Origin: Candidatus Poseidonia sp.
GTDB lineage: Archaea > Thermoplasmatota > Poseidoniia > Poseidoniales > Poseidoniaceae
Direction of reading: 5' to 3'
DNA: 41,167 nt
Assembly: GCA_030828165.1 (NCBI GenBank)
Contig: JAURDA010000013.1
Span: 1-41,167, forward strand
Below, one piece after another: positions 3 to 32,500 of the stretch. Each line of letters begins with the position of its first letter. Positions within the stretch are counted from its first letter, which is position 1. Under the pieces are notes generated by a model that saw only the letters and a list, made by a program, of their open reading frames with translations, searched no databases and had not been told where the DNA came from. The position numbers were made by a program, and so were the translations under genes.

Positions 3-3000
3 ACCGGCCTTTCCATCGATTCGGTCAACGACGTTGACTTTTTTGAAATCGTCATGGTCGCCGGGGTGACCTATTACGCCAACATCTCCTTCACCCATAC
101 GAACGGGGACATCGATGTTGGATGGGACGATGCCTCCGGTGGTTTCCTCGACAGCGGTACCAGCGTCAGCAACCTTGAGAGTCTGCAAGTGACGGCATCG
201 ACCAACCAAACCACGTATCTCGACGTTTACGGCTTTACGTCGTTCGGACAAACCACGTTTGCCAACACCTATGATATCGAGATCACCACAGACAACCCCG
301 GAGGTGGGCAAACCTTCGAACTCGTGAACGTGAACATCGTGAACTCAACCTTCGCAACGCTCTCGTTTAGTGGACTGACCAACGGGACTTCCTACCAGTA
401 CAATCACTCCTACGGGCAGGAAAACCTTGCAGGAAACCAAACGTGGTCCTCCCCGGTCACGGGAACCTTCACCGCTTCCTCCACGACCCATTCAATCGCT
501 TTCAACATGACACCGAACGTCGGTGAAACCGTCTTGATGGCGACCTCCACCCTCCGTTCAGCCGGTGGTGCCCTTCTTCACACGGACATGGATTCCCTTT
601 ACTTGGAAGCCGTTGAGGCCACGGTCACCTCATCGACTTCAGGAGAAATTGAATTGACCAACCTCTCCGCATCAAGCAGTTACACCCTTCATTGGATCAC
701 GTTGGATTACGATGAATGGTTGACCAATTTCACGGTGTCGCAAGACGTCCATGCTGCGATCAACGCTTCCATGATCGATGAAGACACGTGGAACGTGACG
801 AACACCGGCCAAGCCTCCTATCAGGTCAACTGGATCGGTCCAACCACCATGAACGACCATCTCTTCCTTGCGTACATCTACACACCGGGAACCCTGCCGA
901 ACTTGGACACCAACGAGAACCTCACGGGGCTTCACATCGACGAGTTCGTGCCGCAATTGCCCGCCTTGGTGATCGACGGCTATTCGACAAGTTCCACCGC
1001 AAGCACGAACAACGTGCAGGCCAAGGGCGCCGATTTGGTGGTCGGCGACAGCTACCAGTACCAATACCGTTTGACCGATGCTTCGGGAGCCAACCTCGCC
1101 ACCTCGCAGATGACGAGTTTCTCTGCAACGGCACAAAACATGAGCATCTCGACGTGGTCGTACACGACGCCAACGGCATCGGGGACGTACTGCGTCAACA
1201 TCGACCTCTACTCGAACACATCCGTGCAATTGATTGGGGACGATGCTTGCTTCCAACTCACGTTTGACGATGACAACGACGGCGTAGCGAACGAAGCCGA
1301 CCTCTGTCCCAACACGGCCACGGGAGCCGTTGTGGACCAATACGGATGCGCCCTTGCGCAGAAGGACACCGACGGGGACGGTTACAACGACGCCGTGGAT
1401 GATTTCCCAACCGACAGCACCCAATGGTCCGACATGGACAGCGATGGTTACGGCGACAACGCCAGCGGGAACAACCCGGATGCTTTCCCGAGCGACGGTA
1501 CGCAGTGGTCGGATACCGACGGCGATGGCTACGGCGACAACGCCACCGGAAACATGGCCGACGCTTTCCCGATGGACCCCACGCAATGGTCGGATATGGA
1601 CGGCGATGGCTACGGTGACAACGCCAGCGGGAACAATCCCGATGCTTGGCCAGCTGACAGCACCCAATGGGCCGACAGCGATGGCGACGGCTTTGGTGAC
1701 AACCCCACCGGAACCAACGGCGACGCCTTCCCCAACGATGCGTCGCAATGGTCGGACGCCGACGGGGACGGTTACGGCGACAATCCCAACGGCACCACGC
1801 CCGATCATTTCCCGAACGACGCTACGCAATGGGAGGATACGGACGGCGACGGTTACGGCGACAACCCCGACGGCACCAACGCCGATGCCTTCCCCGACGA
1901 CGCCACCCAATGGTCCGATGCGGACGGCGACGGCTACGGGGACAATCAAGCCGGCACCGACCCGGATGCCTTCCCCACCGACTCCACGCAGTGGTCGGAT
2001 TCGGACGGCGATGGGTACGGTGATAACGCCGCAGGTCTCAACGCCGATGCCTTCCCGAACGACGCCACCCAATGGCGCGATGCGGATGGGGATGGCTACG
2101 GGGACAACGCCAACGGAAACAACCCCGACCTTTGCTTGAACACGCCCTCCGGCGAAGCCGTGGATAGCAACGGCTGTTCGGCGTCGCAACTCGACGGCGA
2201 CATGGACGGCGTCAGCGATGCCTTGGATGCCTGTCCCGATACGCCTGCCGGCGAACCGGTGGACAACGTCGGTTGTTCAGGCAGCCAAGAAGACGCCGAT
2301 ATGGACGGTGTCATGGACGGCTTCGACGCCTGTGCCAATACCCCGCTCGGTGCTCAAGTTGATGCAGCCGGTTGTGCGCCAAGTCAACTCGATACCGACG
2401 GCGACAGCATCACCGACGACCGTGACCAATGCCCCACAACGACGGCGGGTTTGCCCGTGAACGGCGTGGGCTGTGCCGCTTCAGAACGGGATACGGACGG
2501 CGACGGTGTCGTTGATTCAACCGATGTTTGCGACGCAACGCCGATGAGCGAAGCGGCCGATGCCGCCGGTTGCTCCCCCTCGCAAAAAGACGGCGACGGT
2601 GACGGCATTTCCGATGACATCGATAACTGCCCCGGAACTGAAAACGGCCTCACCGTTGACATGCTTGGTTGTGCGACCAATCAGCGAGACACCGACAACG
2701 ACATGATTTCGGATGCCGATGATGTTTGCAACGCCACGCCCGCAGGTGAGCAGGTGGACGCTCAAGGATGTGCAGAGTCCCAGAAAGACAGCGACCGAGA
2801 CGACATCAACAACAACCTCGACCTTTGCCCGGACACCCCGGTCACGCTCTCCGTGGACGTTGATGGCTGTGCAGAACAGCAAAAGGACGATGACAAGGAC
2901 GGTGTTTTCAACCATCTTGACGATTGCCCGAACACACCCATGGACGAACTCATTGACCCCATGGGTTGCGCCTTGACACAATTGGATTCGGATAACGACG

Positions 3001-29058: not shown

Positions 29059-30963
29059 ATGCAGATGACCTACCGAGAACTCAAAGACGAAATTGCGAAA
29101 ATCATCCCCCGTTCAATTGAATACGAACTCGACCTTGAAGCGGGGAACATTGCGATCATCACCAGTGATGTCAGTGCCTTTACGGGTCAAAACGGACTGA
29201 TTGGGAAAATCAGCAAGCGCGTCAAGCGGAAGATTGTGTTGCGAACGCCCCTCGATGCCATGATGGACATGGACGAAGCGAGGACTCACATCGAGTCAAT
29301 CCTGCCTGAAGACGCCGAAGTCACCGAGATGTACTTTGATTCCTGCTATCGTGAAGTCACCATCCAATGCAAAAACCCAGGAAGCGCCGTGGGCCGTCGT
29401 GGAGAGAACAACATCCGAATCAGGGACGAGACCGGATGGTCGGTGAAAGTCGAGCGCACGCCTCCCTTGTTCTCCAAAACGGTTCACGACATCAGGATGT
29501 ACCGCCAAGCCAACGGGGATGAGCGTCGCAAGTTGTTGAAGGACTTCGGACTGAACATTCACCGCCCAACCCGTCCCGGCGGGACGTGGGCTCGCGTCAC
29601 GGCACTCGGGTCGTACCGAGAAGTGGGGCGCGCCTGCCATTACGTGACGACCAACGAATCACGCATCATGATCGATGTCGGCGTGAACATTGCTTCGGAC
29701 ACGGACCCCATGCCGTTTTTCAATGCCCCCGAGGCTCTGCCACTTGACAAGCTGGACGCCGTGGTCCTCACGCACTCGCATCTTGACCACGCCGGTATGC
29801 TTCCGGTGCTGTTCAAGTACGGCTACAGAGGACCCGTCTATTGTACGCCGCCAACACGCGACCTCATGCTCCTCCTCCAAACGGACTACTTGAAAGTCGG
29901 CGGTGCAGAAGGGAAGCGTACGCCGTACGACATGGAAGACATCCGCATGTGCATGAAACACGTCGTTGACGTGGATTGGGACTCCACCACCGATATCGCT
30001 CCCGATGTCAAACTGACCTTCTCCAACGCCGGCCATATTCTCGGTTCATCGGCGGTTCACCTGAACATCGCCAACGGGAAACACAACATCGTGTTCAGCG
30101 GCGACCAAAAGTACGAGAAATCTTGGCTTTTCGACGCCGCCAACACCCGTTTCCCTCGTGTTGAGACCTTGGTTATCGAATCCACTTACGGTGCATCCGG
30201 CGATTATCAGCCATCCCGACAAGAGGCCAATCAAGAACTTCAGGACATCGTGTCTCGAACCCTTCTGCGCGGTGGAAAGATGATTTGTCCGGTCTTTGCT
30301 GTCGGGCGAAGTCAGGAAGTGATGATCGCCATCGATGAGTTGTTCCGCTCGGGGACCGTGAAACCCGTTCCCGTGTGGCTTGACGGCATGATTCAGGAGG
30401 CCACCGCCATTCACGCTTCCCACCCCAACTACTTGACGAAAGCCTTGGCAAAGTCGTTGCTTCAAGACGACGGTGAAAACCCGTTTACGAGCGAGTGGTT
30501 CCGTCCCGTCAAGGGGCGTGAACTGCGGGAAAGCATCGTCATGGACAGCTCGCCGTGCATCGTTTTGGCGACGTCAGGAATGCTGAACGGCGGGCCCGTC
30601 ATGGAGTACTTCAAGAATTGGGCTCACGAGGAGCGAAATTCGCTTTGTTTTGTCGGCTATCAAGCCGAAGGCACCCTTGGTCGCCGCTTGCAGAAGGGCT
30701 TTGGTGAAGTGCCGATGCTCATCAACGGAAAGACCGAGATCGTCAAGATTGGCTGCGAAATGGTCACCATCGATGGGTTCTCGGGGCATTCCGACCGACG
30801 CCAACTCCTGGATTTCGTCGACCGCATCGACCCGGCGCCCAAGAACATCATCTGCCACCATGGCGACTACCAGAAGTGCAACGAATTGGGCCTCACCCTT
30901 CGTGAACGCTATAATTGCCTGACCTTTGCTCCGAGCAACCTTGAGACGGTTCGCCTGTTTTGA
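29059..30963 (+). CDS. fttA: aCPSF1 / FttA: KH-domain beta-CASP ribonuclease
   Basis: A 634-residue archaeal homologue of the eukaryotic mRNA 3'-end endonuclease CPSF73. It cleaves nascent RNA at U-rich sites and terminates transcription. Residues 1-~150 are the two KH-type domains (VGRRGENNIRIRDETGW is a GxxG loop region). The metallo-beta-lactamase motif HSHLDH lies at ~238-243, GDQKYEKSW at ~347, and beta-CASP motifs include SGHSDRR (~575) and CHHGDY (~598). All zinc ligands appear intact. ATG 29059 has GAGGTGA 4 nt upstream; ATG 29065 is an alternative. The stop abuts the stop of the convergent small gene. Confidence 0.96.
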   Translation: MQMTYRELKDEIAKIIPRSIEYELDLEAGNIAIITSDVSAFTGQNGLIGKISKRVKRKIVLRTPLDAMMDMDEARTHIESILPEDAEVTEMYFDSCYREVTIQCKNPGSAVGRRGENNIRIRDETGWSVKVERTPPLFSKTVHDIRMYRQANGDERRKLLKDFGLNIHRPTRPGGTWARVTALGSYREVGRACHYVTTNESRIMIDVGVNIASDTDPMPFFNAPEALPLDKLDAVVLTHSHLDHAGMLPVLFKYGYRGPVYCTPPTRDLMLLLQTDYLKVGGAEGKRTPYDMEDIRMCMKHVVDVDWDSTTDIAPDVKLTFSNAGHILGSSAVHLNIANGKHNIVFSGDQKYEKSWLFDAANTRFPRVETLVIESTYGASGDYQPSRQEANQELQDIVSRTLLRGGKMICPVFAVGRSQEVMIAIDELFRSGTVKPVPVWLDGMIQEATAIHASHPNYLTKALAKSLLQDDGENPFTSEWFRPVKGRELRESIVMDSSPCIVLATSGMLNGGPVMEYFKNWAHEERNSLCFVGYQAEGTLGRRLQKGFGEVPMLINGKTEIVKIGCEMVTIDGFSGHSDRRQLLDFVDRIDPAPKNIICHHGDYQKCNELGLTLRERYNCLTFAPSNLETVRLF

Positions 30964-31248
30964 TCAAAGCGGGATGTCAAAATTCATCGCAAGCGGGTCG
31001 GGCAATTGCTCGTCTTGGTCCGGGAGAGCGCCCGCTTTTCCCGTTGAACCGGCGAGGGGATACGCCGTTCGATGACCCTCTGCCTGCGGTCCGGTTTTCA
31101 TCAAAAGGGCCGTGCCGAAAGCCGTGGCAAAAAGCGTTCCAAGGATTAAAGTGAGTGTAAACTCACTTGAAGAATAGGCCCCGATAAGAACGATTCCGCT
31201 ACCGAGGAAGAGGGCAACCGTCAACATTCGACGTGCGCCACCAGCCAT
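30964..31248 (-). CDS. Small two-helix membrane protein, unknown
   Basis: A 94-residue protein with two adjacent hydrophobic helices, MLTVALFLGSGIVLIGAY and LTLILGTLFATAFGTALLM, followed by a Gly/Pro/Asp-rich tail. ATG 31248 is chosen so that the first helix is near the N-terminus; an ATG at 31305 would run into the divergent gene. There is no recognisable family. Its stop codon abuts the aCPSF1 stop. Confidence 0.6.
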   Translation of the reverse strand: MAGGARRMLTVALFLGSGIVLIGAYSSSEFTLTLILGTLFATAFGTALLMKTGPQAEGHRTAYPLAGSTGKAGALPDQDEQLPDPLAMNFDIPL

Positions 31249-31263
31249 GAAGGGCACACGACC

Positions 31264-31941
31264 ATGGAGTTCATGAACCCGTTGCGCCTGTGGGATTCCA
31301 TGCAAGCGTCAGGCAGTCCAAAGTGTCCCGGTTGGTTGATGACGGCCGTCGCTCCCTGGGGGGAGAACGCCGAAGACGCCTTTGACCAAGGTCTGGTTGA
31401 ACTTGGTTTGGGGGACGTTCGTTTGATTCAAGCCCAAGGGGCGATGCTCCCTCTCGGCTTTGGTGTGACGCCTCCAAGGCCGCTTCCAATGGGTTCCCTT
31501 GTGGAGTGTCATCTCGCAACCGCTTACGCCTGGAACGGGTCTTCGGCTTCCGCTGGAGTGGCTTGGGCGATGTGCGTCACCCCCGAAGGGGACGAATGCG
31601 CCGTCGTGGCCACCATCAGCACCGATCGTGATTATGAGGAGACGGTTTTGTTGTTGCGCCGAAACCTGCAACGGCGTCTTGCGAGCAGAGACCTCGAGGT
31701 CCTGGAGTTTGATGTTGCCGTCGATGAGGTCACGGCAGGTCCCGACCACCACGGTGTAGCGGTTGCGGCGCTGATTCTTCCTGAATCGCTTTCCCTCGGT
31801 GCGCGAACCAAGACGGGGCCCGTCCGTGGTGCCTTGACACGAACTGCAGAGGAACCAAAGAAACGCGTGGACACCAAGGCCCCAGCAGCCCCAGCACGTC
31901 GTCCAGGTCAGCCCCAAAACAAGCACGACTTTTCGCTTTGA
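31264..31941 (+). CDS. Degenerate pyruvoyl-dependent arginine decarboxylase homologue
   Basis: A 225-residue protein. The first ~165 residues align by eye with PvlArgDC of Methanocaldococcus: NPLRLW, GENAEDAFDQGLVELGLGDV, RLIQAQGAMLP, LPMGSLVE and CAVVATIST. The family self-cleaves at a Ser-Ser pair (ISSIMPP) to make its pyruvoyl group; here these positions are Gln58-Gly59. The catalytic Glu of the IMEYEG segment is Thr. It therefore should not form the cofactor. A disordered Ala/Pro/Lys tail (~190-225) is extra. It probably has a structural or regulatory role, or a new chemistry. It is followed after 7 nt by a zinc-ribbon gene. Confidence 0.75.
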   Translation: MEFMNPLRLWDSMQASGSPKCPGWLMTAVAPWGENAEDAFDQGLVELGLGDVRLIQAQGAMLPLGFGVTPPRPLPMGSLVECHLATAYAWNGSSASAGVAWAMCVTPEGDECAVVATISTDRDYEETVLLLRRNLQRRLASRDLEVLEFDVAVDEVTAGPDHHGVAVAALILPESLSLGARTKTGPVRGALTRTAEEPKKRVDTKAPAAPARRPGQPQNKHDFSL

Positions 31942-31948
31942 GGTTTCC

Positions 31949-32389
31949 ATGTCCGAAACAACATGGATGGTGATTCGGTGTCCGGGGTGCGGACATTGTT
32001 CAGGCCACCGGAGTGGGAAAGGGCGCTGCCCTCATTGCGGTACGTCGTTTCCAAGAGATATTGAGGTGGTGACGACGGTCTTGCGTGCAGACGCTCTCCA
32101 AATGGAGGTGGCTCTTGCAAACACGCCCGAACCCCTTCGGGACGAACTCCGCAAACGCATGGAGCGTGATGTGAAGAACATCAACACCGCAACGGACGCT
32201 TCGCCCACCACCATTTTCCGGGCTCTTCGCGAGGCGGCCAATGCCGAGGGTGAATTGACCACCGTCACCGTCGAGGGTGTTTTGCGACGCATGGGGGCAG
32301 AACAAAGCGTTGACGAAGTCATGACCCGAGCAGAAACCGAGGGATTGGTGCTCCGCTCGGGCCGTGGGTGCTGGATGCTTCTTGAGTGA
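31949..32389 (+). CDS. Zinc-ribbon protein with C-terminal helical / winged-helix-like part
   Basis: A 146-residue protein beginning with a zinc ribbon (CPGCGHC at ~11-17 and CPHCG at ~27-31). A charged helical middle (ANTPEPLRDELRKRMERDVK) and a C-terminal region with VEGVLRRMGAEQSVDEVMTR and a hairpin LVLRSGRGCWMLLE follow. The end looks like a winged helix, so nucleic-acid binding is plausible (inference). TGAGGT, overlapping the upstream stop, serves as ribosome site, implying co-translation with the decarboxylase homologue. Confidence 0.7.
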   Translation: MSETTWMVIRCPGCGHCSGHRSGKGRCPHCGTSFPRDIEVVTTVLRADALQMEVALANTPEPLRDELRKRMERDVKNINTATDASPTTIFRALREAANAEGELTTVTVEGVLRRMGAEQSVDEVMTRAETEGLVLRSGRGCWMLLE

Positions 32390-32422: not shown

Positions 32423-32500
32423 GGGCGTATGGGTTAGTTTGGCCTATACTCGGGCGTTTGGGACGCTTGGACCCAAGTTCAAATCTTGGTACGCCCACCA
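32423..32500 (+). tRNA. tRNA-Pro (anticodon TGG), CCA encoded
   Basis: Acceptor stem GGGCGTA (32423-32429) pairs with TACGCCC (32490-32496), then A and an encoded CCA end the gene. The anticodon stem GGGCG/CGCTT holds the loop TTTGGGA (32457-32463), giving anticodon TGG at 32459-32461, which reads CCA. The T stem CCAAG/CTTGG flanks TTCAAAT. It ends exactly where the stop codon of the opposite-strand parvulin gene begins. Confidence 0.93.

Follow-up and report, generated by a model that had tools for sequence, protein, structure and literature searches.

A conserved Poseidoniales relative of pyruvoyl-dependent arginine decarboxylase lacks the self-cleavage serine and keeps an ancestral zinc-ribbon neighbour

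Pseudoenzymes are common in eukaryotes; to our knowledge, there are few archaeal cases that span an order and whose history can be traced. Pyruvoyl-dependent arginine decarboxylase (PvlArgDC; PF01862/TIGR00286), represented by the M. jannaschii structures 1mt1, 1n2m, 2qqc and 2qqd in the PDB, makes agmatine from arginine, and its Glu109 helps self-cleavage (PMC2720952). Loss of PvlArgDC activity by mutation has been described for the Chlamydia protein AaxB, which is inactivated in C. trachomatis strains (PMC2720952). The trypanosomal AdoMetDC prozyme is another case of a pyruvoyl decarboxylase fold kept without catalysis; it belongs to a different fold family and activates an active enzyme. 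The PvlArgDC reaction is also carried out by SpeDA, an active, AdoMetDC-derived protein of unrelated sequence: the Ca. Poseidoniales SpeDA DAC51064 is a measured arginine decarboxylase with a Km of 2.8 mM, and a speB-speDA-speY arrangement has been reported for Poseidoniales (PMC10407285).

Here we describe a PvlArgDC-fold pseudoenzyme encoded by Candidatus Poseidonia sp., in a window of 41,167 nucleotides that comprises the whole stretch of DNA analysed. Unlike the recent loss within Chlamydia strains, this dead form is conserved order-wide, and our literature search found no description of it. The genes of the locus are:

29059..30963, + strand: transcription termination factor FttA/aCPSF1; some genera have it elsewhere or inverted, with the pair that follows still together
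30964..31233, - strand: divergently transcribed gene for a small protein, predicted to be a membrane protein and ending in ...MNFDIPL
31300..31941, + strand: PvlArgDC-fold pseudoenzyme, 213 aa (start at 31264 in the longer form of the earlier note)
31949..32389, + strand: partner gene, here called ZnR, DUF5817-like, 146 aa, with a CxxC...CPHCG zinc ribbon and a winged helix predicted at the C-terminus
32423..32500, + strand: tRNA-Pro (TGG), also found 3' of ZnR in genomes without the pseudoenzyme

The open reading frame at 31264-31941 (+) is real. Since several orthologues, such as those of loci L013 and L047, have no usable upstream start before the equivalent of Met13 of the longer form, the ATG at 31300 is a more likely start than 31264. 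Residue numbers refer to the 213-aa form unless marked as early numbering, which counts from 31264.

On its own the window protein is only remotely similar to PvlArgDC. A Pfam search of the window proteins gave no match for it; it scored E 3e-6 and 27 bits against TIGR00286, below the curated cut-off of 106.95, and E ~3e-4 to 6e-4 against PDB 1n2m/2qqd. Nine orthologues exceed the PF01862 cut-off, and a profile of 30 orthologues (alignment A1) reaches canonical Thermoplasmatota PvlArgDCs with a best E of 2e-18. The AlphaFold2 model has a confident core and a disordered tail and matches 1n2m/2qqd in Foldseek with E 5e-14, TM 0.88 and 2.1 A; M. jannaschii PvlArgDC accounts for each of the best 12 Foldseek matches (TM 0.83-0.89, normalized to the length of the target). 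The profile match together with the predicted fold match makes descent from PvlArgDC secure, and both the homology claimed in the earlier note and the comparison with the Methanocaldococcus enzyme that it proposed come out in its favour. We take the window gene to be the Poseidoniales orthologue of the PvlArgDC gene. The AFD...LPMG...AGxA framework and the equivalent of Asp35 are common to both proteins. A search of viral contigs found no relative.

What the protein has lost is the self-processing site. Canonical Thermoplasmatota enzymes carry the loop N-[LI]-V-[SA]-V-S-S-[IV]-[LI]-P, whereas all 104 distinct Poseidoniales orthologues read R-[LIF]-[IV]-x-x-x-G-A-[MF]-L-P, and Ser, Thr or Cys occurs in the processing loop of none of the 104. 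The codons concerned are:

31420..31422, + strand: invariant Arg41, replacing a conserved Asn (Asn47 of M. jannaschii)
31438..31443, + strand: invariant Gly47-Ala48 (Gly59-Ala60 in early numbering), which best matches the self-cleaving Ser-Ser
31612..31614, + strand: Thr105 (T117 in early numbering), at the Glu109 position; T, S or K in relatives

Because the pseudoenzyme loop is one residue longer, Ser-Ser falls on Gly47-Ala48 or on Gln46/Ala48 around an inserted Gly; the Gly47-Ala48 register is the one set in the alignment by the conserved ...LP-G downstream of the loop. The missing cleavage serine reported in the earlier note is thus real, while the pair named there, Gln58-Gly59 (Gln46-Gly47), is off by about one residue and represents the least favoured register; the nucleophile is absent in every register. 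Likewise, replacement of the catalytic Glu by Thr holds for the window, whereas in relatives the position is T, S or K and conserves no Glu. That the protein would be unable to form a pyruvoyl group by the known mechanism, as had been proposed, is well supported by the loops of the 104 orthologues. Gly-Ala, Arg41, Glu69 and His71 occupy fixed positions at which the canonical enzymes have other, equally fixed residues; Glu69, Cys70 and His71 are all invariant among pseudoenzyme orthologues, and Cys70 is already found in canonical Thermoplasmatota enzymes. Retained from the canonical enzymes are Asp29, the equivalent of Asp35, which we take to have a substrate-binding role, and the nearby G38. 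The protein is in effect a natural counterpart of 1n2m, the uncleaved S53A proenzyme of M. jannaschii.

A further difference from PvlArgDC is a long C-terminal extension:

31795..31938, + strand: predicted disordered tail with a conserved tip [DNS]-F-x-[LIFM], poorly conserved and absent from canonical enzymes

The AlphaFold2 pLDDT is <50 over residues ~166-213, in agreement with the disordered tail read earlier from the sequence. The tip Phe is invariant in the 30 orthologues of A1, the rest of the tail being poorly conserved. Members of the second family often begin MDF[NKS][IV], and in L036-L044 the N-terminal MDFNI/MDFKV resembles the C-terminal DFGF/DFSF, which suggests a repeated linear binding motif.

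The gene is under strong purifying selection. For unsaturated pairs dN/dS is ~0.01-0.04 (window versus L004: dN 0.020, dS 0.54), and core columns have a mean majority identity of 80% over two families. In a tree, canonical and Poseidoniales clades separate with 100/100 support and modest divergence within each; between them lies a very long stem, whose length, at such a size, is rough. A long stem with a conserved crown is what one expects when a burst of change gives way to renewed constraint. The pseudoenzyme is present in 85 of the 146 genomes of the order and 14 of 21 genera (10/10 in its own family, 4/11 in the second family), including 23 of the 33 genomes that are at least 90% complete. 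Every PF01862 match in the 146 genomes is the pseudoenzyme gene, and none is a canonical PvlArgDC. Seven MGIIb genera lack the pseudoenzyme and keep ZnR. In the second-family genera of this kind that were read, ZnR adjoins FttA and is flanked by the small membrane gene and by tRNA-Pro, nothing but the pseudoenzyme being absent. A hidden, divergent pseudoenzyme copy was considered for the MGIIb genera and rejected: there is none upstream of ZnR, and the stretch holds the small membrane gene on the opposite strand. Genomes that lack the pseudoenzyme show a similar reading of that gene at the corresponding place.

ZnR lies closely 3' of the pseudoenzyme on the same strand, and the pair is intact in all orthologous loci long enough to hold it, also where FttA has moved or inverted. 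Canonical PvlArgDC is followed directly by a ZnR-type gene at 13 of 16 catalytically intact Thermoplasmatota loci from other families. At 12 of these 16 a motif scan finds a zinc-ribbon gene whose start lies at -4 to +4 nt relative to the PvlArgDC end; at the thirteenth, L174, the partner was recognized by profile with a weak match. The ZnR-type neighbour at the canonical locus of G264 was found independently by genome search. The PvlArgDC-ZnR two-gene arrangement is ancestral. The coupling to a zinc-ribbon/winged-helix gene put forward in the earlier note is therefore real, but the dead form did not newly acquire it, since intact enzymes of the phylum share it. We also considered a functional tie to FttA and rejected it because the pair stays together where FttA has moved or inverted. 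In several genera (L035, L047, L048 and L131-L138), FttA and the proteasome gene have changed place or orientation with respect to the pair, which marks a site of rearrangement next to the operon.

ZnR has four invariant cysteines (C11, C14, C27 and C30; alignment A2). The elements of its AlphaFold2 model (H86-96, E102-104, H105-115, H121-130, E134-138 and E141-144) follow a winged-helix topology. Foldseek returned no match to ZnR at E<=0.001; weak fold matches were to CRP-type/winged-helix regulators and to the winged helices of MCM8 and Rpa2, so DNA binding and protein binding are both possible. In a Pfam search, DUF5817 (PF19134) did not match the window ZnR above or below cut-off, it matched the canonical-PvlArgDC partner of L172 with 33.7 bits against a cut-off of 31, and it weakly matched several other canonical-PvlArgDC partners and five Poseidoniales partners. 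The Poseidoniales forms are very divergent from DUF5817 zinc-ribbon proteins, and a literature search found nothing on DUF5817/DUF1922. Of 142 genomes of the order, 138 carry ZnR, as do all 33 genomes at least 90% complete; ZnR diverges much faster than the pseudoenzyme, with a higher dN/dS of ~0.03-0.28. As ZnR persists in the seven genera that lack the pseudoenzyme, it does not depend on the link. In L209-L223, from such genera, the first zinc knuckle is CxC, not CxxC.

TiaS needs agmatine, and TiaS is encoded in 129 of the 146 genomes of the order. PLP-type arginine/ornithine decarboxylases do not explain the supply: among 40 genomes searched, PF02784 (PLP-type decarboxylase) was found in none and PF01276 in none over cut-off, with sub-threshold matches in five. 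A single AdoMet_dc gene is present almost always (136/146). In the window genome this gene, elsewhere than the pseudoenzyme, has an arginase-family gene on one flank and a deoxyhypusine-synthase-like gene on the other, that is, in the speB-speDA-speY arrangement, so the search for another arginine decarboxylase suggested in the earlier note did yield one candidate. By analogy of gene arrangement, the window genome's own SpeDA would decarboxylate arginine, and this cluster, taken with the assayed Poseidoniales SpeDA, indicates that the old PvlArgDC job has probably been taken over. Genera without the pseudoenzyme keep both TiaS and the AdoMet_dc gene. In L225, positions 1550-2860 (-), the AdoMet_dc (SpeDA-type) and deoxyhypusine-synthase-like (SpeY-type) genes are fused into one frame of 437 aa, and similarly long AdoMet_dc frames occur in several other genera of its family.

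Upstream of the pseudoenzyme lies a conserved DNA element:

31270..31285, + strand: TTCATGAACCCGTTGC, ~30 nt before the start codon

Its consensus, TT[CG]A[TA]GAACC, holds 19.1 bits in 12 nt as against 3.5-9.3 for neighbouring genes, and almost every orthologue of the two families has it in the form TTSATGAACCCgttgc. A single further site in the genome comes within one mismatch of the element, inside a long frame; most of the near matches read elsewhere in the genome fall inside long coding frames. By eye, weaker TGAACC-type sequences stand at a similar distance before ZnR in genomes without the pseudoenzyme. We rejected the idea of a generic promoter box, as the window shows no enrichment of TGAACC (35 copies against an expected 31). 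The element could serve as an operator; it could also be a core promoter conserved to an unusual degree.

Re-purposing, which the earlier note had imagined as a trimeric scaffold or a polyamine sensor, is well supported by the loss in the loop, the purifying selection, the lack of canonical PvlArgDC in 146 genomes and the replacement by SpeDA. Our best explanation, for which belief and doubt are about evenly balanced, is that the pseudoenzyme became, after the SpeDA takeover, a non-catalytic partner of ZnR, a trimeric core with DFxL arms serving gene regulation and acting on its own operon through the element. We infer that arginine decarboxylation passed to the arriving SpeDA first and that PvlArgDC catalysis was lost second. 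The dead protein would then have been kept in the ancestral arrangement with ZnR, having gained disordered ends. Its core, a trimer in the known enzyme and presumably so here by inheritance of the fold, would display several disordered arms whose tips carry the DFxL-type linear motif; it would contact ZnR physically, and the pair would bind DNA and regulate genes, probably including its own operon. The new role, in our view, is probably regulatory. More tentative, and on balance rather unlikely, is the fuller proposal that a pyruvoyl enzyme, once its reaction had passed to an unrelated enzyme, was converted within its ancestral operon into a subunit, for ligand sensing or for assembly, of an archaeal transcription regulator whose target is its own promoter.

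Retention of Asp29 makes it possible that the protein is instead a metabolite sensor, its old active-site pocket binding arginine, agmatine or a polyamine and signalling to a transcription-regulating ZnR. The shared G38, the strong selection, the predicted winged-helix partner and the pair's ancestral tie with an arginine enzyme all fit; however, Asn47 has become Arg, the Glu109 position is variable and the loop has gained a residue, so the pocket is changed, and we think a sensor unlikely. The very low dN/dS could also reflect a new enzyme with pyruvoyl-free chemistry, and the many invariant polar residues in the core would fit a new catalytic function, with Glu69-Cys70-His71 as a candidate set in which Glu69 and His71 are newly fixed. 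Yet Cys70 predates the change, and the companion gene encodes a winged-helix protein rather than anything related to a substrate, which leaves a new enzyme distinctly improbable to us.

Dead partners of pyruvoyl decarboxylases have a precedent in the trypanosomal AdoMetDC/prozyme pair (PMC5201418, PMC6221367), and the pseudoenzyme might in the same way switch on an active decarboxylase. Unlike the trypanosomal case, a catalytic homologue of its fold for it to activate is found in none of the 146 genomes; SpeDA is of another family, encoded elsewhere and active in E. coli without the pseudoenzyme (PMC10407285), and the genera lacking the pseudoenzyme retain TiaS and AdoMet_dc. An activator is accordingly very improbable. 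Homology, fold and the conserved Asp might suggest a protein that still decarboxylates arginine by some other route to a carbonyl cofactor; against this stand the 104 loops free of Ser, Thr and Cys, the unconserved Glu109 position and the SpeDA-type gene in the same genome, and we give that idea almost no credence. Nor does the absence from seven MGIIb genera speak convincingly for a functionless, decaying remnant kept by chance: the selection data contradict it, as do the core identity over two families and the presence in all ten genera of its own family, making a remnant scarcely believable.

Living genomes show what look like successive states of this history: intact enzyme with partner, dead enzyme with partner alongside SpeDA, and partner alone. 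They also display a conserved zinc-ribbon/winged-helix protein that is tied to arginine decarboxylase and for which our literature search found no described function. In the abundant marine group II archaea, it would be an error to annotate the Poseidoniales genes as arginine decarboxylases. One contig, L110, is filed as a Rhodobiaceae bacterium MAG; it has a Poseidoniaceae gene neighbourhood and is probably mis-binned.
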